Part shown: one piece after another, positions 1 through 36,735 of the stretch
Layout: each line of letters opens with the position of its first letter
Position numbering within the stretch: the stretch's first letter is position 1
Source: a virus
Virus record (IMG/VR): IMGVR_UViG_3300031576_001290
Coordinates: 1 to 41,451 of that record
Direction: 5' to 3' (one strand)
Length of the DNA stretch: 41,451 bases
Position numbers and translations under genes: made by a program
The notes under the pieces: generated by a model
What the model saw: only the letters and a program-made list of their open reading frames with translations
The model's database searches: none
What the model was told of the DNA's origin: nothing

Positions 1-3000
1 TCAGATCGCCCTACGGACTGTCAACTCGATACCGATCAGCCGGGCGTCTCCCGCCAGAGTGTCCGAGAGAGTCGAAGTCTCGTTCGGGTCGCGCGAGATC
101 TGCAAATTCAGCATCTCGCCGGCCGCGCACCCCGTGATCGTGATCGCGGTATCCGCCGCATCGTTCGTCTGGTTCGTCGTGCCCTTCGTCGCGTCGGACA
201 CGCAGTTCCCGGTCGCCTGGGCCGCAAAGGACTGGCTGTCAGTCTCACTATCCGCGACGCACACGACCTGCGCGCACCACGTCACGTTCCCGGTCGTGAC
301 AGTCGACAGCCATTTGTAGGCGACATCGACGTTCCCGGTCCAGTCCGCCGGGAGCATCAGCGTCGTCTGCATCGTCTCGTCGGTCGTACCGTCGAAATCG
401 GCGACGCCCTTGCCGGTCAGGCAAGCGATCGCCGGAGCATTCGACGCCGGAAGGTCGAACATCGGCGCGGCTGTCGCGTTGTTGCAGCCCGCCGCCGGCA
501 ACCAGATCTTCGACGGGATCGTCAGGACGTTGCCAGTTCCATCGGCGTCATAGGTCTTGCCGGTGAGCGTGGCAGTATTGCTGGCGTTCAGGACGTCCAC
601 CCCGTCGACCTGCAATTGCGCGCTCTGCGTCCCGGAGTTGGTGAAATCGAAGATCGAATTTCCCACGTCGGAAAAGCGATCAAACGTCAGCGTCGTCGAC
701 CCATTCCACGCCAGCGTCATCTTCCCGGACGGCGAAGCCTGGGCCGATGGATCGAAGAGCAGCTTTGAGCCATCGCTACCGATGGCCGGCGCATTCGTGT
801 CGCCCGACATGCGCACGAAGTCGTCCGTGGCATCCGCGGGCCGCAGGATCGTGCCCTCGTCGGTGAACTCCGCCGTACCGGCCCCGCCATCATCATCAAT
901 ATCTTTCCACCCGGCAGCGCCACGACAGAACAACACCGAGCCATCGGTGTCCGCGTCGGGGTCGACGAGCAACCGCCCGGCTTCGCCCGCCGCGTCACAG
1001 TCCGTGCCCGTCGGTGTCGTCTCGTTGAGCAGCCGCGGCCACGCATTCGCTGTGCCGGCGTCGAAGTCGACCTCTACTCCATCGAGGACGAGCTCCGTGT
1101 CGATGTCACCGAGGCCCTGCAGATTGTCGACGTCACGCGTCGTGATCTGCGTCAGGTTCGTCAACGTGAGATCGTCGTTGACCTGCGTATCGGTCAGACC
1201 GTTGCCGACGTTGGCCGCAGGGAGAACCCCGGTAACGGCATCGGCGTCCGCGAGGTCGAGCTGGCCGTCGACCCAGTCTCCGGCGCTCTTGATGAGCGTC
1301 GCGCCCGTCGCGGGACTCGTGAGTGTCACGTCGGTCAGATCGGTGAGGGCCACGCTTCCACCACCGGTGTCGAGCACGGACACCACACCGTTCAGGCACT
1401 TCTTGAGCGTCGTCTCCGACAGGTCCGCAAAAATGTTGTAGTTCCCGGCCGCGCAACTCGGGTTGGTGTCCGAATCCTCGAACTCGATCCCCAGGTTGTC
1501 GGCGACGAGCTGACCTGTCAGCGTCCCGCCGGCCAGCGGCAGGTAGTTCGCCACAGTGATCGTGTCCGGGATATCCGAATCCGCGATCGCGCGGAACTGC
1601 GTCACCCCAGCGGTCGCCGTATCGAACAAAGGATAGGTCGCCGCAGTCGACGTCGCGGGAAAGCGCCAGCGCAACGACGTGCCGTCGCAAACGTCCCACT
1701 GGTCCGTTGCCGTCTCGTTGCTGTCGATGATCGTCAGCTCGCCGGAGAGGCCGCTGTTCGCGCACGTCGGGTCGTTGGTGAACGCCGTCTCGTTGTCGAA
1801 AATCCCGAGCTTGTTCCCTGGCTCCGTCGTTCGGTCGTCGGCCACGAAGCTGGGAGCGGTGACCGGCCCGTCGAAGTCGCTCGTGCCGGTGCCGTCGCTC
1901 GTGAGCACGCCGTCGATCTGCGTGTCGCCCGTCTCCTGGACCTCGAGCACGATCGCACTGGCACCGTCGAGCACCTGGAACGATTCCGAGCCGTTGCTGT
2001 CCGCGTCGACCTCGACCGTAACGTCCGTATTGGACAGCAGGGACGGCACCGTCAGGGCCGTGGCGCTCGACGTACCCAACACCCACCCCGTGACCGTCAC
2101 AGAGTCAGCAATCGTCGTCGTGCCGCTACCGGCAGACGCCGCGACCTCACCAGTCAACGCAGAGCGCTGGATACCGCCGCTGCCGCTGAACTCGACACCG
2201 CCACCCACGGTCAATTCCTCGACGTCGCCAGCGCCTGCGGTGTCTCTGCCGAGCAAGCGATCGGTGTTGGCGATGTTCTGGAACTTGGCGTACGTGATCG
2301 CGTCCGCATCGACCGTGCATCCGTCCTCCGCGCCTGTGCAGCTCCAGTCCCCGAAGTCCTCACCGAACATGTTCTCGTCGCCGAGCTTGCCCCACTCGGG
2401 GTCGGTTCCCGCGGCATTGGACTGCAGGACGGTGTCGGCGGCCCCGAGCGCGAAGCGCGCCCATGCCGGAGTCGAGTTGCCAGTGATCAAGTCGCCGCGC
2501 ACCACGGTGCCCGCAGCGCTGTCAGGGTGTGTCGTCGACAGTAGGTTGTGATTCGTCCCGCCCGTCGACGTGTTGTCGAGAAACTCCTCGCCGACGTCCT
2601 TGATGCCGTCGCAGTCGACGTCGCCGTACAACCGATCGGAGTTGGTGCCGGCACAGCTCGCCGTCGCGAGCGTCGCGCCACCGAGAGCCACGGGCCCGGG
2701 GAGGATCGCATGCTGTGGCCACGTCCTCGTCGGCGCGACCAGCGGGAAGCTCGCGACAGATCCAACGGCCTCGGGCGACTGGTTCCACGCGATCCAGTCG
2801 ACCTGTACGCGGCAGGTTCCCGTCGACGCGCTGTTGATCTCCGCCTGGACCACGAGCTGGGAGAGATCCGCGAAAGCAGCGTGGAACGGCGTCGTATCGA
2901 TCTGCCAGGCGCTCGCCTGGTTCGACCCGACCCCGCTGATCGTTGCGAGGAGTGTGCGATCCGTGACGAGCTCGCCGTCGTCGTCCCACCAAATCTTTCC

Positions 3001-5235
3001 GTCGTCCGACGTGCAATTGCCACTCGGATTCAGCCCGGAGAGCCGCCAACGAACCTGCAGGGCCCCGCCCTTCGCCGTGTCGTGCAGCCCGCCGTTGGCG
3101 AAGCTCCATGCATGCGTGAGCGTCTGCGGGTTCGTCGCCGATTGCACGGTGGCGATGCGGGTCTCGTAGGTGTCACGGACACGGTCGCCGTCGGTCGCGC
3201 TCCCGGTTCCCGCGCCCGTCGGGAAGATGTGCCGATAGGCGTCCTCCATCAGCCCGGCCGGGTTCTGCCACGAGGGACGTCCCTCGTACGGCCGGTAGAC
3301 CGGGACCACTGGCAGCCCGCTCGTGGGCTGCGCCTCCATGGGCCACTCGTACGCGTAGGGGTTCTGCCCGAGCGCGTTCGGTTGAACGGTGAGCTGATCG
3401 CCGAGCTTGATCGCACCGGCGAAATCGTGCTGCTCGCTGTGGAAGATCGTCGTCTCCGCTCCGCCCCAGTTCCCCTCGACCTCCGACCATAGAGCGAAGT
3501 TATCGGTCAACGGGCCGCCGCCAACGATCCTGTTCTCCACGAGCGCGCATCCGGTGCACGCGACGACCGCGGGGTCGAAGTCCACTGCGGAACTCGAGAA
3601 GCTCCCGCTCGCGATGACCAAGTCGTTGTGCTCGATCTTGAGGTTCTGCGGGTCGGTCGAGATGTTCCGGGCGATTTCGATCGCCGAACTCGATCCGGCC
3701 GGACTAGAAATCCTGTTCCCCAGGAGCGTGATGCGGTTCCCGCCAGCAATCTTGACCACGGAATTGGTGGTCGTGTGCTGTTCGAGATCATTCCCGATCA
3801 CGGTCGCGTCTTCGACTGCGGCGAGAAACAAGGGCGGATTGAAGTACTTCGTCGACAGGTGGTTGTTGGCGATGATGACGCGGCGGCTCCGCGTAACGGA
3901 GAAGTCGAGCGTCGCGGTGCCAACGGTGTCAGTCGTGCGAGCGATGTTGCCGACGGCCGTCAGGCCCTCGCCGAATGCAGTGGCAGCGTTGTCCGTCGGC
4001 AGGACGAGGATCGACTCGTCTCCATCGTTGTCGAGCGCGAAGATGTTCCGCGAGATATCGAGCGAGTCGAAGTCGATCAGGTACGACAGCTGATGGTTCG
4101 CGAAGCCGGTGAAGACGTTGTCAGCGATCCGGATTCCGCGGCCGAGGTTGAGGTTCGTCCACGGGAGTTCCGCCAGGTCCGATCCGAAGACGATCCATCC
4201 GAGCGGCCATTCCCCGGCGCTGGCGCCAAACCCGGCCGTGTAGTGGAATCGGTTGCGCGAGACATCGACGTTCGTGTATGTGATCGCCGGCTGCGAATCG
4301 CTTCCCCCGTCAAACGAGATCCCGGCCGACGAGTAATCGAACGAGTTGTCCGAGATCGCGGCCGAAGTCGCTGCCCCACGGACGTGCACGGTCTCGGAGT
4401 AGATCGCGGGCCCGCTCGCCTTGTATTTGAGCGGGCCGAAGCGATTGAACTGGATCGTGAACGTGATCTGGGTCGAACTGTCCGCCGTACCAGCACGGAC
4501 GTAGCCGCCGCCGCCGTCCGAGTTCCCGTTGACCGTGTCGATCGAGCCGGCTTCGGCGAACGTGCACCCGGTCACGGACCAGTTGGTCGAGGTCGACGGC
4601 ACATCGAAGAGCCAAACGCCAGCAGTGCGCGATCCGGGAAAACGAATCGTCGCCCCTGGCTCGCATCGGACGTGGCAGTTGGACGGGATCGCGTAGCCGG
4701 CGGCCGCGGAGCTCTCATAGATCCCCGCGGCGAAGATCACGACGCGATCGGCGGCCAGGTTGACGCTCCAGCCCAGCCAGGGGGACCCGGACGATCCCGC
4801 ACCGGTGGCGCCATCGGTCGCGTACTTGATGCCCAAGATTGGTGCCTGGAAATCGGTCCCGGACGTCGCGATCGACAGTACGCCCGTCCCGGTCGTGCTC
4901 TTCACGAGCCCCGTCGCGAGCGCGGCGAGCGCCTGCTCCGCGGTCAGCGTCCCGTGCGCGGTCTGCGTGATATAGGTCGCGTTGATCGGCGCGCCACCGC
5001 CTCCGCCCGCTGGATCGCACTGGGTCCACGTGCCGGGCGTCGAGGGCGGCGTGTAGCCGATGCAGCACCAGTGCTCGGTGACGCCCAGGTCGTTGAACTC
5101 CCAGATGACCTTCGTCCGGCACGAGCCCGCTGGCTGGCTCGTCGCCGTCTGCACCGGCCCTGCGGTCTGCGCCTGCGCTTGCCCCCAGAGCGCGAGCGCG
5201 ACTCCCAGAAGGAGCGCACGCGCTTTCATTTTCAT
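1..5235 (-). CDS. Giant tailspike/tail fibre with right-handed beta-helix and N-terminal signal peptide (1744 aa)
   Basis: Probable receptor-binding or polysaccharide-degrading tail protein. The start at 5235 follows a strong AGGAGGCGG site and overlaps the upstream stop by 4 bp (ATGA); reading further upstream only shadows the neighbouring gene. Residues 1-22 form a Sec-like signal peptide (MKMKARALLLGVALALWG, then AQAQ), which is unusual for a virion protein. A short Cys-containing region and a Gly run follow. Residues of about 200-585 carry repeated short strands with Asn/Asp turns (e.g. ISDNSFDYSSAGISF, VSRNRFHY) typical of pectate-lyase-like parallel beta-helices. A jelly-roll-like segment follows. 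From about residue 895, sequence such as HNLLSTTHPD...VVRGDLI resembles segments seen repeatedly in phage fibre proteins. The C-terminus (DARLIGIEL) is also fibre-like. The gene is complete and lies at the 3' end of the late operon. Catalytic residues cannot be assigned by eye. Confidence 0.85.
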   Translation of the reverse strand: MKMKARALLLGVALALWGQAQAQTAGPVQTATSQPAGSCRTKVIWEFNDLGVTEHWCCIGYTPPSTPGTWTQCDPAGGGGGAPINATYITQTAHGTLTAEQALAALATGLVKSTTGTGVLSIATSGTDFQAPILGIKYATDGATGAGSSGSPWLGWSVNLAADRVVIFAAGIYESSAAAGYAIPSNCHVRCEPGATIRFPGSRTAGVWLFDVPSTSTNWSVTGCTFAEAGSIDTVNGNSDGGGGYVRAGTADSSTQITFTIQFNRFGPLKYKASGPAIYSETVHVRGAATSAAISDNSFDYSSAGISFDGGSDSQPAITYTNVDVSRNRFHYTAGFGASAGEWPLGWIVFGSDLAELPWTNLNLGRGIRIADNVFTGFANHQLSYLIDFDSLDISRNIFALDNDGDESILVLPTDNAATAFGEGLTAVGNIARTTDTVGTATLDFSVTRSRRVIIANNHLSTKYFNPPLFLAAVEDATVIGNDLEQHTTTNSVVKIAGGNRITLLGNRISSPAGSSSAIEIARNISTDPQNLKIEHNDLVIASGSFSSSAVDFDPAVVACTGCALVENRIVGGGPLTDNFALWSEVEGNWGGAETTIFHSEQHDFAGAIKLGDQLTVQPNALGQNPYAYEWPMEAQPTSGLPVVPVYRPYEGRPSWQNPAGLMEDAYRHIFPTGAGTGSATDGDRVRDTYETRIATVQSATNPQTLTHAWSFANGGLHDTAKGGALQVRWRLSGLNPSGNCTSDDGKIWWDDDGELVTDRTLLATISGVGSNQASAWQIDTTPFHAAFADLSQLVVQAEINSASTGTCRVQVDWIAWNQSPEAVGSVASFPLVAPTRTWPQHAILPGPVALGGATLATASCAGTNSDRLYGDVDCDGIKDVGEEFLDNTSTGGTNHNLLSTTHPDSAAGTVVRGDLITGNSTPAWARFALGAADTVLQSNAAGTDPEWGKLGDENMFGEDFGDWSCTGAEDGCTVDADAITYAKFQNIANTDRLLGRDTAGAGDVEELTVGGGVEFSGSGGIQRSALTGEVAASAGSGTTTIADSVTVTGWVLGTSSATALTVPSLLSNTDVTVEVDADSNGSESFQVLDGASAIVLEVQETGDTQIDGVLTSDGTGTSDFDGPVTAPSFVADDRTTEPGNKLGIFDNETAFTNDPTCANSGLSGELTIIDSNETATDQWDVCDGTSLRWRFPATSTAATYPLFDTATAGVTQFRAIADSDIPDTITVANYLPLAGGTLTGQLVADNLGIEFEDSDTNPSCAAGNYNIFADLSETTLKKCLNGVVSVLDTGGGSVALTDLTDVTLTSPATGATLIKSAGDWVDGQLDLADADAVTGVLPAANVGNGLTDTQVNDDLTLTNLTQITTRDVDNLQGLGDIDTELVLDGVEVDFDAGTANAWPRLLNETTPTGTDCDAAGEAGRLLVDPDADTDGSVLFCRGAAGWKDIDDDGGAGTAEFTDEGTILRPADATDDFVRMSGDTNAPAIGSDGSKLLFDPSAQASPSGKMTLAWNGSTTLTFDRFSDVGNSIFDFTNSGTQSAQLQVDGVDVLNASNTATLTGKTYDADGTGNVLTIPSKIWLPAAGCNNATAAPMFDLPASNAPAIACLTGKGVADFDGTTDETMQTTLMLPADWTGNVDVAYKWLSTVTTGNVTWCAQVVCVADSETDSQSFAAQATGNCVSDATKGTTNQTNDAADTAITITGCAAGEMLNLQISRDPNETSTLSDTLAGDARLIGIELTVRRAI

Positions 5236-6673: not shown

Positions 6674-7161
6674 GCGGCGCGCTCCAGGCGCGAGCTCGAG
6701 GAGAGGCAGCGGCCGAAGACCGTGCCGGCACCCGACACCCGGACGAGCGTCACCTCGAGCGTCGCGTGCGTACCCGCGACTGCCTTCACGTCCGTGCTCG
6801 AGATCGTCACCGTCACGAACCCCCAGGCGGTCACGCCGGTCGGCAGGTCCGAGCTGTCGACCGGCGTCCCCGCCCCGAGTTTGAATCGCAAGCGCCCGAC
6901 CGTGCCGACGTCCGCGTAGCCCTCGGCGCGGATCACGAGCGTGACCGCGCCCTCGAGCGTTGCAACCGCGGGCGGGATCCAGAGTTCGATGTTCGCGACG
7001 ACGGTCGCAGCCGCGGCTGCGGACGCCGCAGGGAACCGCGTGTCCACGGGGACCGAAATCAGAGCCTCTTGGTTCGAGTGGAACTTCCCGACGAGCGCCT
7101 CGATGAACGCGCTCTCGGCGTCGACCTCGGCCGCCGCGATGTTCTGCCACGCCTTGGCCAT
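6670..7161 (-). CDS. Hypothetical tail-tip protein (163 aa), beta-rich
   Basis: Unrecognised family. The start MAKAWQNIAAAEVDAE at 7161 shares one base with the stop of the large tail protein upstream (TGATG), and this fixes the start. The first 30 residues look helical. The rest alternates hydrophobic and polar residues with many Val/Thr/Gly (VVANIELWIPPAVATLEGAV, WGFVTVTISSTDVKAV), consistent with a beta-sandwich. It is in the same operon as the hub and fibre genes. Probably a minor virion protein at the tail tip; the function is inferred only from location. Confidence 0.7.
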   Translation of the reverse strand: MAKAWQNIAAAEVDAESAFIEALVGKFHSNQEALISVPVDTRFPAASAAAAATVVANIELWIPPAVATLEGAVTLVIRAEGYADVGTVGRLRFKLGAGTPVDSSDLPTGVTAWGFVTVTISSTDVKAVAGTHATLEVTLVRVSGAGTVFGRCLSSSSRLERAA

Positions 7162-9482
7162 CAGGCCTGCACGACGGTGTAAGCGGCCTCGCCGTCCGGG
7201 AAGAATTCGGTGTTCGGGCCGATGTACCCCTGCTGCTTGTCCGCGAGCGTGGCCGCGCCGTAGGTCGCGGCCACCGTGTTCGCCGCGACGATGCACGGCC
7301 GCGAGATCGGGCGGCGCAGGTGGAGCTCGAGCTCGACCATGGCCAGCTCGCGCTCGCCGGCCTCGACCTGGATCCGCCGGCGCGTGACCAGGAACGCATC
7401 GAGCTCACCGACACCGCGGGAGGCGGTCTTCAGGTTCGGGCACGTCGGAATGTCGATCGACACGACGTCGGCGATCGCCAGGTCCTTGTGCTTGTAGAAC
7501 GCTTTGACCCGGATCGGCGTCGGCGGGTTCGCGAGCTCGAACAGGATCTTCTGTCCAGCGAAGAGCAGATGCGCCTTGCTCCCGTAGTCCGGGAACCCGA
7601 GCCGTCCGGTGCGGGCGCCTCGCGCGTCGATCTGCTCGGGCTGCGCCTCGCCGTAGCGCGTGATCGACGCGGTCTGCGTCTGCGAGAAGGAGTAGTCGCT
7701 CTCGCCCTCGGACGGGTTCCAGTCCGACGACCACCGCAAATTGTTGACGCGGCCGCGGAACCCGCGTTTCCACTCGCTCGCCCGCCACTCGTCGACGCGC
7801 CACTCTTTCCCGATCGGCTTCGGCGTGACCGGCACGCGGAAGTACGTCTCGATCGCCAGGCGCTCGTCGGCGAGCACGCGCGGGAGCAGCGCGTAGGGCT
7901 GGAGGATGTGCTCCTCGATCCACGTCCGCAGGTTCCTGATCGGAGACTTGTCGACGATCAGGTTCGCCGTTCCGCCACCGAGGAGCGCGCCGGCGGATGA
8001 GAACGCGGGCCTCCGCCACAGCTCGTCGCGTACGAGCTCGATCGCGCGCAGGTCGAAGAAGTAGTCGCGGATCCCGAGGCCGTCGCCGTCGCCGACGTCG
8101 TACGGGCCGTTCGGTGCCGAGTCGAAGGGCCCGACGACGTCCAGGCCGTCGACGTAGAACACGCCTGCCGTCGAAAGCACGATCACGAGCTGGTAGGCGT
8201 CACCGCCCGCGAACGTCGGATCGACCTGGAACCAGTTCAAGCCGTGGCCCCAGGCGAGCGGTCTGAAGTTACGCGTCGCGTCCGTGAAGATGTCGAGCTG
8301 GCTCACACCGAACTGGGCGAAGAGCGTTCCGCTCCCGACGCCCGTGTTCACCCAGCTCCCGCTGCCGGGAGTCAGGAAGGTCTGCTCGTCCCACTCCTTG
8401 CCCCGCGTCGTGTTGCGGACGCGCATGTCGATCGCGCCCGTGTCGTTCCCGCCGGGCGAGTAGCCGTGGCAGTGGATCAGGTACCACTTGCCCGGGACGA
8501 GCGACGGTAGCGACCGCGAGAGCTGGCAATCGCCGAACCCTCCGGTCTTCGTGATCTTCGCGGACTTCGCGCCGCCGTGGATGCGCGTCGACTCCTCGGC
8601 GATCGTCGCGTTCGTCTCCGCCTCCGTCCAGCCGTCCGGCGACCCCGCGGTCCAGGCTTCGAGGTCGCCGTTCGCGTAGAGCGCCGCGGCCGCAGGGCCG
8701 CGGTTCGTCGTCATCAGCCATTCGAGTGCGATATCGATCGGGTTCCCGCGCTTGGCCCACACCTGGATGATCTGCGTGTCGCCAGCGAGGAACGTGTGCA
8801 CCGCACCGCCACCCCACTGCCGACGCGTGCAGCCCTGTAGGTCCTTGTTCCCGGTGCCGCCGATCGACGTGTAGCGCACGAGCTCGGCGCGCTTCGCGCT
8901 CGAGTCCCAGAGGAACGCGTAGCCGGGCTCGCGCCACTGACCCTTCGGCGACTCCCCGAGCGTGATCGTCGTGGCCGCACTCGAGAGTCCCGTTGGGTAG
9001 GTCACCGAGTCGAGCCGGAAGCTCTGGCCGTCGACGTCGTCGTAGAGGCCGCGGCTCATGTCGCCGAGTACGGATTCGAGCTCGAACGCCCAACCGCCGC
9101 CCGCTGGACCCGTCACCGCGACGTCCGAGACACGCCAGCGCGTCTCGTGGAAGTCCGCCTCGGCGAGATCGGCGAATCCCTCCTTGCGTGAGACGCGAGC
9201 GTTGTGCAGCGTCGCATCGTGCGCGGCGATCCATGCCGTGACGAGCTCGTCCGCATCGGGGATCGAGAACCCGGCGCTCCCGACCGTCAGCCGCGCTCGG
9301 CGAATGTCGAGCTGGTCGCCCGAATCTGGCTCGGGCACAGCACCCACGAAGAGCGTCCAGCCGCCAGGCGTTGCGATCCCCGGGAAGCGCCGCGAGACGA
9401 ACCTCGTTGCGAGGTCCGGGAAGTCGTAGACGAAGATCGCGCTCTTCGACTCTCGGTCGCGCGCCGTCTCGTAGTTCCCCAT
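7161..9482 (-). CDS. Large tail-tip/baseplate hub-like protein with a carbohydrate-binding-module-like insert (773 aa)
   Basis: Downstream of the tape measure and the 311-aa tail protein, where siphoviruses encode the tail hub. Residues 1-260 and about 460-740 look like the two halves of a beta-rich structural protein; the second half has WRVDEWRASEWKRGFRGRVN and VSIDIPTCPN. Between them (about residues 268-455) is an insert that opens NGDLEAW...PDGW and includes LVPGKWYLIHCHGYSPGG and YVDGLDVVGP. This is the familiar layout of family 4/9-like carbohydrate-binding beta-sandwiches that sit beside glycan-active domains. It shares one base with its upstream neighbour (TGATG). Catalytic motifs are not visible. 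Likely role: adsorption apparatus core, possibly glycan-recognising (inference). Confidence 0.7.
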   Translation of the reverse strand: MGNYETARDRESKSAIFVYDFPDLATRFVSRRFPGIATPGGWTLFVGAVPEPDSGDQLDIRRARLTVGSAGFSIPDADELVTAWIAAHDATLHNARVSRKEGFADLAEADFHETRWRVSDVAVTGPAGGGWAFELESVLGDMSRGLYDDVDGQSFRLDSVTYPTGLSSAATTITLGESPKGQWREPGYAFLWDSSAKRAELVRYTSIGGTGNKDLQGCTRRQWGGGAVHTFLAGDTQIIQVWAKRGNPIDIALEWLMTTNRGPAAAALYANGDLEAWTAGSPDGWTEAETNATIAEESTRIHGGAKSAKITKTGGFGDCQLSRSLPSLVPGKWYLIHCHGYSPGGNDTGAIDMRVRNTTRGKEWDEQTFLTPGSGSWVNTGVGSGTLFAQFGVSQLDIFTDATRNFRPLAWGHGLNWFQVDPTFAGGDAYQLVIVLSTAGVFYVDGLDVVGPFDSAPNGPYDVGDGDGLGIRDYFFDLRAIELVRDELWRRPAFSSAGALLGGGTANLIVDKSPIRNLRTWIEEHILQPYALLPRVLADERLAIETYFRVPVTPKPIGKEWRVDEWRASEWKRGFRGRVNNLRWSSDWNPSEGESDYSFSQTQTASITRYGEAQPEQIDARGARTGRLGFPDYGSKAHLLFAGQKILFELANPPTPIRVKAFYKHKDLAIADVVSIDIPTCPNLKTASRGVGELDAFLVTRRRIQVEAGERELAMVELELHLRRPISRPCIVAANTVAATYGAATLADKQQGYIGPNTEFFPDGEAAYTVVQA

Positions 9483-30265: not shown

Positions 30266-30574
30266 TTACCTCCCCTTCTTCGATCGTGTCTTCGCCGGCC
30301 TGCACGCGCTGCACAGGTCCTTTCCGACCCAGGTGCACGGCGCCCCCGTCTTCTTCACGCAGCCCGAGCAGTCGTCCTCGGTGCAGCCGCACACCCGGCA
30401 GCTGCGCACCGGGGGTGCCGCCGCATCGACGATCTTGGCGACGTCGACCCCGAAGGCCTTGGCTCGCTTCGGGAAGTCCCGCTGGGCGCTGTACTCGCCG
30501 ACGTCGGCGAGTATGGACATCATCGCTGCATGACGGATCAGGTCCTCTGCAGACGTCTGCGCGCTCTTCCCCAC
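30266..30574 (-). CDS. Zinc-ribbon protein (102 aa)
   Basis: The C-terminal half has the cysteine-rich block CRVCGCTEDDCSGC...PCTWVGKDLCSAC (residues 59-91), a zinc-ribbon motif seen repeatedly in small phage proteins. The N-terminal 50 residues are helical (AEDLIRHAAMMSILADVG, DVAKIVDAAA). The end is basic (KTRSKKGR). The GTG start is supported by a strong AGGAGGGG site. Probably binds DNA or RNA; the specific role is unknown. Confidence 0.75.
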   Translation of the reverse strand: MGKSAQTSAEDLIRHAAMMSILADVGEYSAQRDFPKRAKAFGVDVAKIVDAAAPPVRSCRVCGCTEDDCSGCVKKTGAPCTWVGKDLCSACRPAKTRSKKGR

Positions 30575-30585
30575 TCTTGCCCCTC

Positions 30586-30672
30586 CTATGCTGCTGCCTG
30601 CTGCTCCTGCACGACCCGCCCGCCGGCGATCTGGATCCGTGCGTCCGCGGCCTCGTGGATCACGCGTTTCAT
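30586..30672 (-). pseudogene. Orphan sbcC C-terminal tail (28 codons), remnant left by HNH insertion
   Basis: Short frame whose protein resembles the last 28 residues of the sbcC-like gene: EAADARI then GGRVV, against EAADARL and GGRVL. In DNA the two copies differ at many codon third positions (about 65% identical by eye), so this is a diverged homologue, not a recent duplicate. It begins immediately at the HNH stop (ATGA). Best explained as the original 3' end of sbcC, displaced when the HNH gene arrived with a replacement tail. Whether it is translated is unclear. Confidence 0.6.
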
Positions 30673-31205
30673 CGGTCGCCCCATGCAGTTATGCCGCCGG
30701 CTGCGTCGCCAGATCCCATTCCACGAGGACGCCTGTTCTGTGCCTGCTCGGATGCTGTGGCCCACCGGCAATTGCCAGGCTCGTAGTTGCCGTCGTTTTC
30801 GATCCGGTCGATCGAATGGCGGGACGACGGACGGGGGCCCATGTCAGCGAGGAAGTTCTCGAACGTGCCCCACCGCGCGCAGACGCGGATGCCCCGAGCG
30901 CCGTAGTAGCGGAAAGACAGCTCGTTGGGGTTCGAGCAGCGGTTTCTCATCCCGCACCAGATGCGGTACTCGTTGGTCTTTCGGCCCACGCGGGCTTGTC
31001 CGTGCCGAAGCCGGCACACACCCGAGAGCCTCAAGCATCGACACGACCTGGCCCTGCCGGATTTCAGGAGCTGTCCGGAGATGACCTTCTGGTTTCCGCA
31101 GTCGCAGAGACAGAGCCACCGTGACCCAGTGGAATCAGAGACGGCGGACCGCGCCAGCACGACGAGCATCCCGAAGCGCTGCCCCTCGAGCGATAGAGGC
31201 CTCAT
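30669..31205 (-). CDS. HNH homing-type endonuclease with N-terminal DNA-recognition domain (178 aa)
   Basis: Mobile-element endonuclease. The N-terminal region (EGQRFGMLVVLARSA, WLCLCDCGNQKVISG, LLKSGRARSCRCL) is the Cys-containing recognition module common in free-standing HNH nucleases. The C-terminal half (EYRIWCGMRNRCSNPNEL, YYGARGIRVCARW, FENFLADMGPRPSSRHSIDR, IENDGNYEPGNCRW) holds the HNH fold, with His/Asp in HSIDRIENDG and Asn/Cys in the final pair. The ATG overlaps the sbcC stop (ATGA). The gene separates sbcC from a leftover copy of its C-terminal tail. Codon use and GC are slightly lower than in neighbours. Confidence 0.88.
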   Translation of the reverse strand: MRPLSLEGQRFGMLVVLARSAVSDSTGSRWLCLCDCGNQKVISGQLLKSGRARSCRCLRLSGVCRLRHGQARVGRKTNEYRIWCGMRNRCSNPNELSFRYYGARGIRVCARWGTFENFLADMGPRPSSRHSIDRIENDGNYEPGNCRWATASEQAQNRRPRGMGSGDAAGGITAWGDR

Positions 31206-33664
31206 GGTGCGACACCGGCCTCGGTCAGCACGCGCCCGCCCTGTACAACGAGACGCGCGTCGGCCGCCTCCCAGATTTCCCGCTGGTGGGCCACGAAGAT
31301 CACCTGGAACGCGTGAGAGAGCTGGCGTGCGCGACGCAGCATCCGGACATACGCCTGTGCGTTCTCTGGGTCGAGTGCGCCTGCCGTTTCGTCTCTCCAC
31401 CAGGTGGCGTAACGGACGCCGAGCTTCCTCGACTGCAGAATGCCGATTGCCAGCGACAGGGCTTCACCGACCACGACACGCTCCCCACCGCTGAGCGCCT
31501 CGACTGATCTCTCTTGCCCCCGATCGAAGCACTTCAGGTCGAACGCCTCCGAGTATTCACCGTCGCGCTTCTCGCGTAGTGTCTCGAGCGTGACGGAGAA
31601 CCGCGGTCCGTAGCAGCTAGCCAGGAGCTCGTTGACGAGCGCGGTGACCTCGGGCGCCGCGGCGTCGATCTCGAGCGCCTGGACGCCGTCCTTGCCGAGC
31701 CCGCGTTCGAGCAGCTGCCAGTCGCCGAGCTCGGTCGCGGCTGCGGCCTCCTTGACCACCAGGTCCTCGAGCTCCTGCGCCTTGCGCGCGAGCTGCTCGA
31801 CGCGCTCCCGGGCTCGGGCCTCGGCGGCCACGGCAGCACGCTCGAGGATCTCGGTCGCCCGGAGTCTCTCGAACGCGGCCCCCTGCGCCTTTGTGAGCTC
31901 GGTGACGTCGCCGGCGTCGCGCCTCGCGGCCTCCCAGGCCTCGCGCGCGGCGTCCTCCCGCGTCGCCGCTGCGGAGATCTCCGCGGCGTGCATGGCGAGG
32001 TGGTCCGTGGTCACGCTCCGGAGCGCCTCGAGGTCATGGTCGAGCCTGGCTCGCTCGGCCGCGGCCTGCTGGACGTCCTTCCGCGCGGCCTCGAGCATCT
32101 CCTCGAGCGAGTCGTCGGCGGCATTCCGCTGCTCGGCGATCGCGGCGAGCTGCTCGCCGAGCGCGTCGCCGCTCTCGGCCCGGGCCAACGCGGCCTGCCC
32201 CGTGGCCACGGCCTGCTCGGCCGCCCGCAGGTCTGGCGGCGCGCCGAGCTCGGCGCGCGCTTTCTGCGCGGCCTCGCGGATGCGCACGGTCTCTCGGTAC
32301 GGCCCGGCGTCAGGTGGCTCCGCCTCGACCAGGTCGATGCGGTCCTGCGCGGTGCGGGCATCCGCGAGCAGCGGGCAGGTGCCGGCGAGATCCTCGGGGT
32401 GGACCTCGCTCTGTTCGCCCGCGGAGTGCCCAGCGTCGAGGCGCGCGTACCACGCGCCGGCCTGCGTGCACGGCACGCTCGCGAGCCGCGCGGCCTGCTG
32501 CCGCAGCCGGCTCAAGTCCGCGTCCCGGCGGTCGGCCGCGGCCTGGTATGCGCGCGAGGCCTCGCGTTCCGCCTCCTGCGCACCCCGTAGCGCCGCGTCG
32601 GCGTCGGCGCATGCGACTACACCCCCGTTCGCCTCATCGCGTGCGGCCTGGGCAGCGGCGAGCCCCGCGAGGGCCTCCTCGAGGACCGGCAGCGCTCCGA
32701 GCTGCGCGTGCAGCCGCTCGGCCCGGTCTTCGAGTGCGTGGACGGCCGCCGCGTGCCTCCGTCTGGCCGCGGGCTCCAGCTCCTCGACCTTCCGCGCGTC
32801 GAGGAAACGGATCCGCTCCGCGTGCTCCTTCTCCGCCGCCTCGAGGCGCTGCGCGGCCTGCGTCCGCGCGATGTGTAGCTGCACGGCCTCCCGCTTGGCC
32901 GCGGCCAGTGCGTCGTAGAGCGCAGCCGCGCGCTCACCAGCCGAGCGTGCGCGCTCGAGTACATTCGAGGAGGCAGCCTCAGCCTGCCGGGCGGATTCCA
33001 ACGTTGCCCCGGCCAAGGCCACCGCCTCGATCTCCTGGGCCAGCTCGGCGCGTGCGGCGTCGAGCGGCGCGATCTCGTCCCGGACCCGCGCGGCGAGCGA
33101 TCGCGCCCCCGCGAGCGCCTGCTCGGCGCTCGTGCGCTCTGCACGCGAGCGGCCCGCGAGCTGCTCGAGCAGCCCGAGGCCGAGCAGCTCACAGAACAGC
33201 GCTTTCCGATCACCTTTGCGGAGCGTGAGGAAGCTTCCGCCCTTGTCCTGCGCGGCGAAGACCGAGGCGAGCAGCAGATCGGGCGAGCCGAAGCGCCGCA
33301 GGACCTTCGCGTCGAACGCTGCAGCCTTCCCGTCGGTCACGGGCGCGCCGTCGACGAGGATGTAGCCATCGGTCGTCCGGCGCTCGGCGTCGATCGCCAG
33401 GCGCACGGAGATCTCCGCGCCCGCGCCGTCGAGGAACACCGCCTCGACGTAGGCGTCGGTCCCGTGACAGTGCTCGTAGAGAGAGCCCGCGCGCGTCGCG
33501 AAGCGCTTGAAGAGCGCGGCGAATGGGGCCTCGAGCAGTGTGCTCTTCCCCGCGCCGTTCGGGCCGACGACGGCCACGAGGCCCTCGCCGAGCGCGTCGA
33601 AGTCGATCGACACCGGCTGCGCGTACGTCGTCAGGCCGCGGAAGGAGAGCCGGAGGAGTTTCAT
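31202..33664 (-). CDS. SbcC/Rad50-like ATPase (820 aa)
   Basis: SMC-type partner of the SbcD-like nuclease encoded two genes upstream. Walker A is GPNGAGKST (34-42). The signature motif is ALSGGER (723-729). Walker B is degenerate (YATWWRDETAGALDPE, with D758-E759). The H-loop is H793. Between about 170 and 690 lie long heptad-like Ala/Glu/Arg helices, with a zinc-hook-like pair of cysteines near residues 398 and 431 (VPCTQ and GTCPLL). It starts with ATG overlapping the upstream stop. The C-terminal tail appears to have been replaced during HNH insertion. Phage SbcCD-type enzymes process ends during recombination and replication. Confidence 0.9.
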   Translation of the reverse strand: MKLLRLSFRGLTTYAQPVSIDFDALGEGLVAVVGPNGAGKSTLLEAPFAALFKRFATRAGSLYEHCHGTDAYVEAVFLDGAGAEISVRLAIDAERRTTDGYILVDGAPVTDGKAAAFDAKVLRRFGSPDLLLASVFAAQDKGGSFLTLRKGDRKALFCELLGLGLLEQLAGRSRAERTSAEQALAGARSLAARVRDEIAPLDAARAELAQEIEAVALAGATLESARQAEAASSNVLERARSAGERAAALYDALAAAKREAVQLHIARTQAAQRLEAAEKEHAERIRFLDARKVEELEPAARRRHAAAVHALEDRAERLHAQLGALPVLEEALAGLAAAQAARDEANGGVVACADADAALRGAQEAEREASRAYQAAADRRDADLSRLRQQAARLASVPCTQAGAWYARLDAGHSAGEQSEVHPEDLAGTCPLLADARTAQDRIDLVEAEPPDAGPYRETVRIREAAQKARAELGAPPDLRAAEQAVATGQAALARAESGDALGEQLAAIAEQRNAADDSLEEMLEAARKDVQQAAAERARLDHDLEALRSVTTDHLAMHAAEISAAATREDAAREAWEAARRDAGDVTELTKAQGAAFERLRATEILERAAVAAEARARERVEQLARKAQELEDLVVKEAAAATELGDWQLLERGLGKDGVQALEIDAAAPEVTALVNELLASCYGPRFSVTLETLREKRDGEYSEAFDLKCFDRGQERSVEALSGGERVVVGEALSLAIGILQSRKLGVRYATWWRDETAGALDPENAQAYVRMLRRARQLSHAFQVIFVAHQREIWEAADARLVVQGGRVLTEAGVAP

Positions 33665-34143
33665 GATCTCGCCTCCGGTAGGAGGCGAGACGCGTCGTGG
33701 ATCAGGATCTCGGGGAGCCGCGCGATCGCGACGTCGCCAAACGTGCGGCCGTCACGGCCGACGAGGAACGGGAGGAAGATCACCGCTGGGTCGATGATCC
33801 CGGCTTCGACCGCGTTGAGGGCCGCCTTGAGCCAGAGCAGGAGCACCCGATGCTCGTGCCGGCCAGCCCCCTGGCGGAGCCGCTCGAACTTCGCCGGGGA
33901 GAACGCGCCGTTCCGTCCGTCCCGAGCGACGGCTCGGAGCTGCGTCTCGTCAGGGAGTTGGAGGACGAAGCGTGCCAAGTAGGTCTGGTCGTCGCGCAGC
34001 CACTGGAAGTGCAGTTCGACGCGGCCGACTCGGTAGTCGTCGGCCCATCCGATCCTCTCGCAGCCCCACGCGCGCAGTAGGTCGTCCACCTCTGCACGGC
34101 TGCGGCCGACCGAGACGGTCGTGTCCTGCGCGTAGCGTCTCAC
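33661..34143 (-). CDS. Conserved phage protein, recombination-associated (160 aa)
   Basis: A protein family common in phages, of unknown function. The recognisable start is YAQDTTVSVGRSRAEVDDLL, followed by YRVGRVELHFQW and RFVLQLPDE. The second half has HRVLLLWLKAALNAVEAGI, FLPFLVGRDGRTFGD and the end IHDASRLLPEA. It lies between the SbcC-like and SbcD-like genes, with GTGA and ATGA overlaps, so it is co-translated with both. This placement suggests a role in the same recombination pathway, though I know of no assigned activity. Confidence 0.7.
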   Translation of the reverse strand: MRRYAQDTTVSVGRSRAEVDDLLRAWGCERIGWADDYRVGRVELHFQWLRDDQTYLARFVLQLPDETQLRAVARDGRNGAFSPAKFERLRQGAGRHEHRVLLLWLKAALNAVEAGIIDPAVIFLPFLVGRDGRTFGDVAIARLPEILIHDASRLLPEARS

Positions 34144-35324
34144 GCCGGCACCTCCTGGCCCTGCTCGATCTCCGCCAGCTTCGCGCGGAGGCGCTCGCGC
34201 ATCGGCTCGTCGGTCGCGATCTGTTTAGCCGCGAGCCAGGCCTCGACGCGCTCCCATGTGTCGCGCGCGGCCGAGATCTCCGCGCAACGCACGCGCGTGG
34301 CGTGCACGAGCACGGCCTCGATCTTGACTTCGTGCGCGCCGGCGTTCAGGAGACCTCGTTCGATGTCGGCCTCGTCGACGGCGTGCAGGGACTCCGCTCG
34401 GATCCGGTAGCGGAATCGCACGAGCGCGCCAGCGCATTCCGATCGATTCCACTGGTCGCCAGCGCCTACCGACTCCGTCCAGTCCCGCTCGATCAGCAGG
34501 ATCCGGCGAGCGGGCAGCTCGCGGAACTCCCAGCGCACGCCGCCCGGCTCGCGCCAGCGCTCCGGGTCGATCTCGACGTAGACCCAGCCCTTACTCTCAA
34601 GTTCTCCTAGATCGTGGCGCTGCGGCGAACCCGGGTAGCGCAGCCGATCCCAGCCCTGCCCCTTGTGGATGTGCGATAGGTTCACCCACGCGCAACCGAG
34701 GTCGATCAGATCACCCGGGGAGAACTCGACTCCCTGCCCAACGAGGACCTGCCCGGTCGAGGTCTCCGAGCCCGCGACGAGGGCGTGAGCCGCCAGGATC
34801 GGTATGCCTCCCGCCGCGGCGACGCGGTGCGCCTCCGCTCGGATCGCGACGAGCAGGCTCCTGGCGGCCTCGATCGTGAGATTGGTAGTCGATGCAACGG
34901 TCGTATCCGATGGGAGGGAGGCGCACAGGTGGGCTTTGGAGAACCAGCTGAGACCGAGCAGGCCGACGATCGTGCCGGCGAGGTCGAGCTCGTGCGCGCT
35001 ACCCGGTGCCGCTGTCGCACGCGTCTCGACGATCAGCCTGTGCTTCGTGCGCAGGCGGGCGAGAATATCGATGTCGCCCTCGACGTCGTGGTTGCCACGC
35101 ACGAGGAACACCGGGGCGACCTCGGTCATCGCGGTGAGGATCTCGACGGCCGCGTTCCGTTCAGTGGGCGTGCTGCGTCGATCGTAGAGGTCGCCACCGT
35201 GAAGGAACAGGTCGACGCCGGCGTCGCGCGCCTGATCGACGAGCGCCAGGTGCACGGCGACGTTGTCGTCGAGGCGCAGGCGTTCCGACAGGTGACTGTC
35301 CCCTGTACAGGCAACTCGCAGCAT
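34140..35324 (-). CDS. SbcD/Mre11-like nuclease (394 aa)
   Basis: Metallophosphoesterase nuclease partner of the SbcC-like protein. Motifs in order: GDSH (D9, H11), GGDLYD (D45), GNHD (N78, H79, D80), AAHAL (H180) and SHIH (H218, H220). This is the complete calcineurin-like set apart from a Ser replacing the first Gly of GHxH. The C-terminal third is a capping domain with several acidic helices. The ATG at 35324 shares one base with the upstream stop (TGATG). A longer frame is visible upstream but only shadows the preceding gene. Confidence 0.9.
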   Translation of the reverse strand: MLRVACTGDSHLSERLRLDDNVAVHLALVDQARDAGVDLFLHGGDLYDRRSTPTERNAAVEILTAMTEVAPVFLVRGNHDVEGDIDILARLRTKHRLIVETRATAAPGSAHELDLAGTIVGLLGLSWFSKAHLCASLPSDTTVASTTNLTIEAARSLLVAIRAEAHRVAAAGGIPILAAHALVAGSETSTGQVLVGQGVEFSPGDLIDLGCAWVNLSHIHKGQGWDRLRYPGSPQRHDLGELESKGWVYVEIDPERWREPGGVRWEFRELPARRILLIERDWTESVGAGDQWNRSECAGALVRFRYRIRAESLHAVDEADIERGLLNAGAHEVKIEAVLVHATRVRCAEISAARDTWERVEAWLAAKQIATDEPMRERLRAKLAEIEQGQEVPA

Positions 35325-36484
35325 CAGGCCCCCTTCGTCGTCGACCGTTTCCGCTGCTCCTCGGCCATCGCCGGCGTCATCGCCGGGTACTGCCGGAGCT
35401 GGAGCGTCGCCAGGTGCTTGTGCGGCTCGTAGCTGAACAGCCGGCCAGGGAAGCAGGCGCCGCAGCGCGGCGAGCCCGTGCGATCGATCGTCAGCTTCGC
35501 GATCTCCGCCGTGATCTCGGCCTGGCACGAGCAGGGACACCCGCAGATGTGCACCGGCGCCGCGGCCGCTGGCGGCTCGTCGAAGTCCAGGCCGTCGTCC
35601 CCGAGCTGCTCCGCGGGCGAGAGCGCGCGCTCCGGTGTCGCGTCCACCAGTACGCGCGCCTCCGGCAGCTCGCGGTCGACCGCGCTCTTGAGCGCGCCGC
35701 GCAGCCGATCCTTGTACGCCTCCTGCGGCGGCCGGCCGTACAACGCACCGGACGAGCCTTCGACGATCCGGATCAACGCGGCCTTCTGGTCCGGGTCCTC
35801 GGGATCGAGTGCCGGGACCAGCTTCGGAACGATGAACGGCTTGGCGAGGTCCTTCGCGCTGTACTTCTGGCGCAGCGAGAACAGGAGCCGGATCCCGCGT
35901 TCGATCGCCTTCGTCTCCGCGTGGCTCTGGATGTGCCGGCGCTTGTCCGCGAGCGCCGTGTCCTCGTACGGCACGAGCCGCCCGGTCTTCCCGCCCTGCG
36001 AGTCCTTCTCCGGCTTCATCGTTTCGGGCGCGCCGGAGCGGAGGTCCATCTCCTTCGTCGCGATGACCTGCCGCGGCGTGCCGTCGAAGTCTCGTACGCC
36101 GAGCACGACCTCGATCTCGCAGTAGTGCGGGTCCGAGCGGTCGTCGAGCCTGCGCTTATCGACGATCTGCACGCCCCCGGCGGCCATGATCTTCGAGAGC
36201 GCGTTCTTGCCGAGCGCGACCTCGTCGCCCTTGCAGAACCGCGGGTCGCGGTAGCACTCAGGGCCCGCGCCGTAGCTGTCGACCGTCGGGTCGACGACGA
36301 CCGCCCGCAGCGAGATCTGGTGCATCGGCATGATGTGGTCGACCGCGGCGATCGGACAGATGACGTTCGCGCTCGCGCTCAGCGCCTCGAACGCGGCACG
36401 TAGCTGCTCGACCGAGCCGACCGGCTGCGTCGGCAGGCCCGCGGCGACCGCTTTGGCCAGTGTGGCTAGTGTGGTGGTGCTCAT
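35324..36484 (-). CDS. Conserved phage protein, candidate ssDNA-annealing/recombination factor with Cys-rich tail (386 aa)
   Basis: I do not recognise a named family with certainty. Blocks VICPIAAVDHIMPMHQISLR, NALSKIMAAGGVQIVDKRRL, DKRRHIQSHAETKAIERGIR and LFSLRQKYSAKDLAKPFIVP give a layout reminiscent of phage annealing proteins of the RecT/Sak group: a beta core, then an AETKA.xR-type helix. That resemblance is loose. The C-terminal part has cysteines (ICGCPCSCQ, RCGACFPG) that could bind zinc. The adjacent sbcD/sbcC-like and rusA genes make a recombination role plausible. The ATG overlaps the upstream stop (ATGA). Confidence 0.6.
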   Translation of the reverse strand: MSTTTLATLAKAVAAGLPTQPVGSVEQLRAAFEALSASANVICPIAAVDHIMPMHQISLRAVVVDPTVDSYGAGPECYRDPRFCKGDEVALGKNALSKIMAAGGVQIVDKRRLDDRSDPHYCEIEVVLGVRDFDGTPRQVIATKEMDLRSGAPETMKPEKDSQGGKTGRLVPYEDTALADKRRHIQSHAETKAIERGIRLLFSLRQKYSAKDLAKPFIVPKLVPALDPEDPDQKAALIRIVEGSSGALYGRPPQEAYKDRLRGALKSAVDRELPEARVLVDATPERALSPAEQLGDDGLDFDEPPAAAAPVHICGCPCSCQAEITAEIAKLTIDRTGSPRCGACFPGRLFSYEPHKHLATLQLRQYPAMTPAMAEEQRKRSTTKGA

Positions 36485-36735
36485 GCGGTTTCCTTCTTCA
36501 GCCGCTCGGCGGCCTGGTGTTCGTGGTACTTGGAGCATGTCGCGTGGTGGCTGACGAGCGAACCACGCTGGCGCGTGCAGGTCTTCATGTCGGCCCACAA
36601 GCTGTACGTCGGGGGCGACGGATCGAGGCAGACGCCCGTCCCGTGCTCGTCCTTGGCGAACACGACCTTGCGGCCGCAGAAGCGGCACGGCCGAACTGCG
36701 GCGCCGCCCGCGGCGAGCTCATCCGCTCGGCTCAC
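36481..36735 (-). CDS. Small zinc-binding protein (84 aa)
   Basis: Contains CRFCGRKVVFAKDEHGTG followed by VCLDP, C53 and HHATC (Cys at 17, 20, 36, 53 and 67), a pattern expected of a small zinc-ribbon. The C-terminus is a charged helix (HEHQAAERLKKETA). It begins at a GTG two bases from the previous stop. Probably nucleic-acid associated; function unknown. Confidence 0.7.
   Translation of the reverse strand: MSRADELAAGGAAVRPCRFCGRKVVFAKDEHGTGVCLDPSPPTYSLWADMKTCTRQRGSLVSHHATCSKYHEHQAAERLKKETA

Follow-up and report, generated by a model that had tools for sequence, protein, structure and literature searches.

Why should an sbcC-like gene of a virus be followed immediately by an HNH endonuclease gene, and the latter by a second, diverged version of the sbcC tail? 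The question is raised by a virus record of 41,451 bases, referred to here as the window, in which all genes of the sbcC/HNH locus lie on the minus strand. The host gene (31202–33664) encodes an 820-amino-acid SbcC/Rad50-type ATPase that matches phrog_77 (SbcC-like, E 5.9e-46) and Pfam SMC_N. Its current C-terminus (EAADARL..GGRVL) ends in ...REIWEAADARLVVQGGRVLTEAGVAP before the stop codon. The last stretch, EAADARLVVQGGRVLTEAGVAP plus stop (31202–31270), aligns with SbcC C-termini and comes directly after the conserved FVAHQREIW segment; we call it the attached tail and argue below that it is probably the incoming one. The HNH gene (30669–31205, 178 amino acids, phrog_374 type) starts inside the sbcC stop codon through an ATGA overlap and has a GC content of 0.65, vs. 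0.73 in the sbcC body. A 28-codon frame, MKRVIHEAADARIQIAGGRVVQEQQAAA plus stop (30586–30672), starts in turn inside the HNH stop codon, again at ATGA. Its last 22 codons (30654–30586) are clearly homologous to the sbcC end, reading EAADARI..GGRVV instead of EAADARL..GGRVL, and the six codons before them match the sbcC copy at R and I only. This displaced tail, presumably native, lies where the original sbcC end would be expected, 11 bases from the next gene (30266–30574, GTG at 30574, 102 amino acids), with a GAGGGG motif resembling a ribosome-binding site in the gap (30580–30585). The sbcC end, the adjoining HNH gene and the frame with the diverged tail were thus all found, on the minus strand, at the place given in the earlier note.

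Over the last 22 codons the two tails, EAADARIQIAGGRVVQEQQAAA (displaced) and EAADARLVVQGGRVLTEAGVAP (attached), share 12 of 22 residues in a global alignment. In a 15-codon core they agree at 29 of 45 bases, distributed as 10/15 at codon position 1, 13/15 at position 2 and 6/15 at position 3 (Fisher p = 0.02 for position 2 vs. position 3). Chance similarity was dropped as an explanation on two grounds. First, in an ungapped search of both strands of the whole window with the 45-base core, the displaced copy is the best match after the core itself (29/45, next best 27/45). Second, in a frame-aware test the pair scores z 9.7, against a 99th percentile of 5.7 and a maximum of 12.6 among 592 non-cognate pairings. 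We take the codon pattern to mean that both tails have been under selection as protein for a long time, rather than having arisen by a recent duplication. A role of the 28-codon frame as a separate functional peptide was also considered and dropped, no support for it having been found and the frame being out of the native gene's frame context.

The HNH protein itself belongs by profile to phrog_374 (E 4.5e-58 over residues 2–161, spanning a zinc-finger-like and an HNH part), a family model that is silent on any carried gene end, and the conserved Cys, His and Asn columns are present. Its predicted fold has 151 matches in BFVD at E ≤ 0.001; a Foldseek search of the PDB returned no match at this threshold, PacI appearing at E 1.3 only.

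Were the displaced copy native, a close HNH-free sbcC would be expected to end EAADARIQIAGGRVV..AAA just before the gene starting at 30574. Single-protein scans of viral_contigs and genome_contigs returned no near relatives of the window sbcC, a single-protein scan likewise returned none for the window terminase, and phage and plasmid records held distant sbcC relatives only. A search with an alignment of sbcC relatives yielded 42 loci in viral contigs, among which the nearest HNH-free genes (L062–L065 and L068) are nearly full-length and only about 40–44% identical. All five carry, like the window, an sbcD-like partner (34140–35540 in the window, minus strand, phrog_100) beside sbcC and share the neighbouring gene at 35324–36688. 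No HNH relative was found next to sbcC in any of these five, weak matches about 3 kb away in L064 apart, and no second tail lies within 900 bases of any of the five genes. The tail of L062, whose gene is 43% identical, is closer to the attached copy (15 vs. 11 of 22), and that of L064 is slightly closer to the displaced copy (13 vs. 12 of 22). At such identities the five tails are too distant to give polarity in the window.

Two observations on gene content concern the same relatives. The region 34140–36688 of the window, with a 454-amino-acid protein (phrog_13782), sbcD and sbcC, represents a conserved module common to these otherwise distant environmental phages. Partial relatives of the 102-amino-acid protein encoded at 30266–30574 occur further downstream of sbcC in L062 and L063; in L062 its two halves have separate relatives (7003–7095 and 8444–8587).

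The arrangement was then surveyed among relatives of the HNH gene, taken from viral contigs (56 loci, then 80, then 73 new of 80) and from bacterial and archaeal genomes (80 loci). These 289 fetched loci were reduced to 260 by merging copies, and the test was applied to the 254 in which the HNH gene is flanked by 100 bases or more on either side. The 300 bases before the gene were compared with the 300 bases after it, as translations of both strands scored against shuffles, one side being required to lie in a frame of at least 80 codons; the thresholds of the survey were set after first results had been seen. Besides the window, 12 of the 254 distinct loci carry a diverged duplicate of the neighbouring gene end across the HNH gene, three at 3' ends and nine at 5' ends (6/176 viral and 6/78 genome loci). 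The arrangement is therefore recurrent and extends to 5' ends, which goes beyond the earlier note. At the other 242 loci no such duplication was found, nor in the named phages Magia and Tiff81, and end duplication is one outcome among several for this HNH family.

As a control, the same test was applied to the other ORFs of the first 210 testable loci, before merging of copies (n = 881). A z of at least 7 was reached by 2 of the 881 control ORFs vs. 8 of the 210 HNH genes (Fisher p 5e-5). On inspection by eye, seven of the HNH cases and none of the control matches were considered real. Both control matches are artefacts, a simple repeat in L118 and a gapped chance alignment in L028. The L118 ORF (5391–6069) consists of a short, tandemly repeated unit in which P, R, S and V are frequent, and both strands are open. 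The eighth HNH locus, L161, was rejected because the similarity there lies between two small membrane-type ORFs of the opposite strand that were taken to be paralogues. Three cases (L145, L159 and L257) lie below z 7 and were accepted by eye, L145 alone of these being verified independently. L136 and L314 were rejected because their similarity was scattered and either remote from the junction or out of frame, and four further loci (L008, L168, L175 and L191) reached z 5.3–5.9. The low-complexity off-frame alignments that a first crude scan had given for L012 and L003 disappeared in the refined test.

At 3' ends the affected genes encode a terminase (L145), an ATP-dependent DNA ligase as judged by its matches (L160) and a protein of phrog_874, a family of unknown function (L266). 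Those affected at 5' ends encode an exonuclease (L036), a RuvC-like protein (L159), NinB (L204), an endolysin (L230), another HNH type (L249), a minor head protein (L255) and two proteins with no family match (L234 and L257); the ninth (L265) is an 80-codon frame. In L159, L234 and L249 the HNH reading frame continues in phase from the stranded native start, which suggests that the nuclease borrows the host gene's start. At L249 (2920–3898) the host gene with the cassette at its 5' end is itself an HNH gene, of a different type. At L265 (2825–3834) the HNH gene is antisense to the gene with the duplicated 5' end, so that the cassette can lie in either orientation with respect to its host gene. 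The divergence at third codon positions noticed earlier in the window holds in all 13 cases, the aligned cores agreeing at 169/238, 186/238 and 81/238 of codon positions 1, 2 and 3.

To establish which copy is native, uninvaded alleles are required, and two loci provided them. For the terminase of L145, 80 relatives were fetched, of which 77 are without an HNH relative and three are the same invaded phage. Compared with the HNH-free L367 (protein 94% identical), the DNA is 94.8% identical and collinear up to base 2882 of L145 and 96.6% identical again from base 3524. The insert is a 627-bp block (bases 2883–3509) consisting of a foreign 3' tail, VSSAGGGAELASRRQVKAVSSMGWT, and the HNH gene, with the HNH stop codon TAG at its right junction. 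Against L369 the collinear blocks stop and resume at 3226 and 3232, about 5 native bases apart. The stranded tail of L145 reads ..SLDGIHNMQARTVKRVAAAGWT, of which the part ..DGIHNMQARTVKRVAAAGWT equals the tail of L367; uninvaded terminases end ..STDGIHNMQARTVKRVAAAGWT in L367 and ..SLDGTHNMQARAVKRVAAAGWT in L368–L371, and the stranded tail is 92–94% identical to the tails of these five HNH-free relatives. Read from these alignments, the junction is clean, the stranded tail of L145 is shown to be the native one and the functional tail to have come with the HNH gene.

L036 is the mirror image at a 5' end. In the uninvaded L446 and L447 (96% and 93% identical) the MANDRIITNNMNIPLPLAVW start runs straight into the exonuclease. 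In L036 the same MANDRIITNNMNIPLPLAVW is stranded upstream of the HNH gene, and the working gene starts MKERIVTNTFNMPLPLAVW. The flank with the stub has 0.75–0.93 identity to L447, compared with 0.66 in the first 50 bases of the new start. By this comparison the stranded start is shown to be native and the functional start to have arrived with the nuclease. At both loci the HNH gene is thus absent from the same site in otherwise collinear relatives. The proposal that the endonuclease brought a replacement gene end and left the old one behind, the old end being continuous with the gene in HNH-free relatives, is borne out at the 3' end of the L145 terminase and, for a 5' end, at the L036 exonuclease; by extension, we infer that the stranded copy is native in the window too. 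Elsewhere the comparisons were mixed or yielded no relatives. For L230, one Hymenobacter relative (L341) resembles the stub and another (L340) the functional end. A family-wide search of 150 genomes for NinB relatives returned L204 only, a genus search of three genomes returned L255 only, and the HNH gene of an Enterobacter MAG (L217) had no match in E. coli genomes.

We consider it very probable that the window holds a free-standing HNH cassette that spreads by homing and brings along a recoded replacement of the gene end it severed. A cassette of about 0.6 kb, made of a recoded foreign sbcC 3' end and the HNH gene, would have entered the sbcC coding sequence about 22 codons before the stop, just after the FVAHQ codons. 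The carried end would rebuild the reading frame and leave the host protein whole without splicing, the HNH gene following the restored stop as in the other 3' cases, and the native 3' end would have been pushed behind the HNH gene as a 22-codon relic before the next gene. The nuclease may recognise a conserved coding motif near the gene end, as judged from the junctions, which lie in SbcC at the FVAH segment, in the terminase at AEALQYLMLH and in the exonuclease at PLPLAVW. It would cut the uninvaded allele at the insertion point, and repair from the HNH-bearing genome would insert and spread the cassette. The re-spelled end could shield the rebuilt gene from its own nuclease, and the recoding could stop the two copies from recombining the HNH gene away. 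More generally, it is probable that such loci form a recurrent class of natural home-and-rescue elements in phages and prophages, in which HNH cassettes invade conserved motifs near either end of essential genes without splicing, each with a recoded substitute for the 12–35 codons cut off. In the 5' form (L159, L234 and L249) the stranded start can become the HNH N-terminus, and the nuclease may then be translated from the start of the host gene.

The same order of foreign end, HNH gene and stranded end would also result from one-sided recombination, in which a break in the native gene is joined on one side by homologous crossover with a donor phage whose gene precedes an HNH gene, and on the other side illegitimately; neither a defined cassette nor a specific site would be involved. 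The functional 5' end of L036, which regains native-like identity gradually (0.66, 0.80 and 0.90 over successive 50-base bins), would fit such a crossover. However, the left and right junctions of L145 map to one native position, to within about 5 bases, and the insert brought in no neighbouring gene; crossovers at arbitrary points would be expected to leave foreign tracts that are longer and of varying length. We therefore regard this explanation as unlikely. If an HNH gene had inserted between genes and the sbcC tail had been duplicated locally on either side of it and then diverged, two homologous tails 0.6 kb apart, as in the window, would also result. Against this history stands the divergence mostly at third positions (6/15 agreement vs. 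13/15 at second positions in the window, 81/238 vs. 186/238 over the 13 cases), which requires long separate selection as a working tail; moreover, no near-identical pair was found among the 13 cases or anywhere in the 254 loci, and in L145 and L036 it is the functional copy that is the odd one out with respect to relatives. Such a history appears very improbable. Hardly any weight can be given to a self-splicing intron, in which the new tail and the HNH gene would be intronic and splicing would join sbcC to the second tail, both tails being used, for although phage HNH genes often lie in group I introns, Rfam at gathering score has no match in the window, 30400–31600 gives PtaRNA1 only at a chance-level E of 2.8, and between the tails there is essentially the HNH reading frame only.

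The homing cassette that we favour has its closest precedent in the mORFs of fungal mitochondria with a carboxy-terminal duplication, described in Allomyces macrogynus atp6 and in Glomus atp6, atp9, cox2 and nad3 (PMC3630166). They too combine an endonuclease gene with a C-terminal end of foreign origin, which is joined to the host gene in phase and differs mostly at synonymous sites, the native end remaining downstream; the two Glomus atp6 ends are 63.5% identical in DNA, comparable to 29/45 in the window (PMC3630166). In the window the endonuclease gene is likewise preceded by an end in phase with its host gene, and in L145 and L036 the native end lies beyond the endonuclease and is continuous with the gene in uninvaded relatives. 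However, mORFs encode LAGLIDADG or GIY-YIG enzymes, in organelles and at C-terminal ends only (PMC3630166), whereas the present cases involve HNH enzymes, phages and prophage-like loci, and both 3' and 5' ends. As its nuclease is of the HNH type and the record viral, we do not file the window as an mORF, although it would work like one.

In the literature consulted, phage HNH genes are found between genes, in introns, hidden in frame (PMC11855218) and splitting genes (PMC2988022). The ShiLan and Pacc40 gp60 insertions are hidden HNH genes in phage methylases (PMC11855218), and the window HNH protein is 50% identical to the Pacc40 insertion. They differ from the window in lying mid-gene and being read through, and the paper describes no regenerated gene end and does not speak of duplication (PMC11855218). 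In ShiLan, the insert opens with 11 in-frame residues similar to the 11 that directly follow the insertion site (PMC11855218), perhaps, by analogy, an internal relative of the present arrangement. Free-standing homing endonucleases of T4-like phages are, like the window cassette, intron-less and interrupt or adjoin conserved genes, but where they split a gene the two pieces must reassemble, whereas here the end carried by the cassette would make the gene whole; neither duplication nor regeneration is mentioned in that review (PMC2988022). HNH homing has also been reported in Skunavirus (PMC12724721) and in Xanthomonas phages (PMC2248197), the present arrangement not being described in the accessible parts of either paper. 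The synthetic HomeR drives likewise place a nuclease cassette where the nuclease cuts and add a re-coded 3' end of the target gene; as an engineered Cas9 system in flies, HomeR is a logical analogue and not a relative (PMC7968924). A search by title or abstract found no phage description of the arrangement, in a literature where subscription journals are thinly covered and a prior description is possible. The principle is already known from fungal mitochondria and has been engineered in home-and-rescue drives; here it is seen repeatedly in phages, at both gene ends and with HNH enzymes.

If correct, this interpretation explains the persistence of an intron-less homing gene within an essential coding sequence, since the gene supplies a functional substitute for the end lost on insertion, and it shows a route for the exchange of phage gene ends. 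It would also explain odd short frames beside HNH genes, which annotators should not call genes. A stranded end would record an earlier homing event and so point to its target site. As both invaded and uninvaded alleles are available, the proposal can be tested by plasmid cleavage and phage crosses.

The terminase gene of L145 (679–2961, also in L364–L366) holds in addition an in-frame segment, CVAPDTLVLTEHGPI...TIHHN, which we take from its motif to be intein-like, so that this one gene would host two different selfish insertions.
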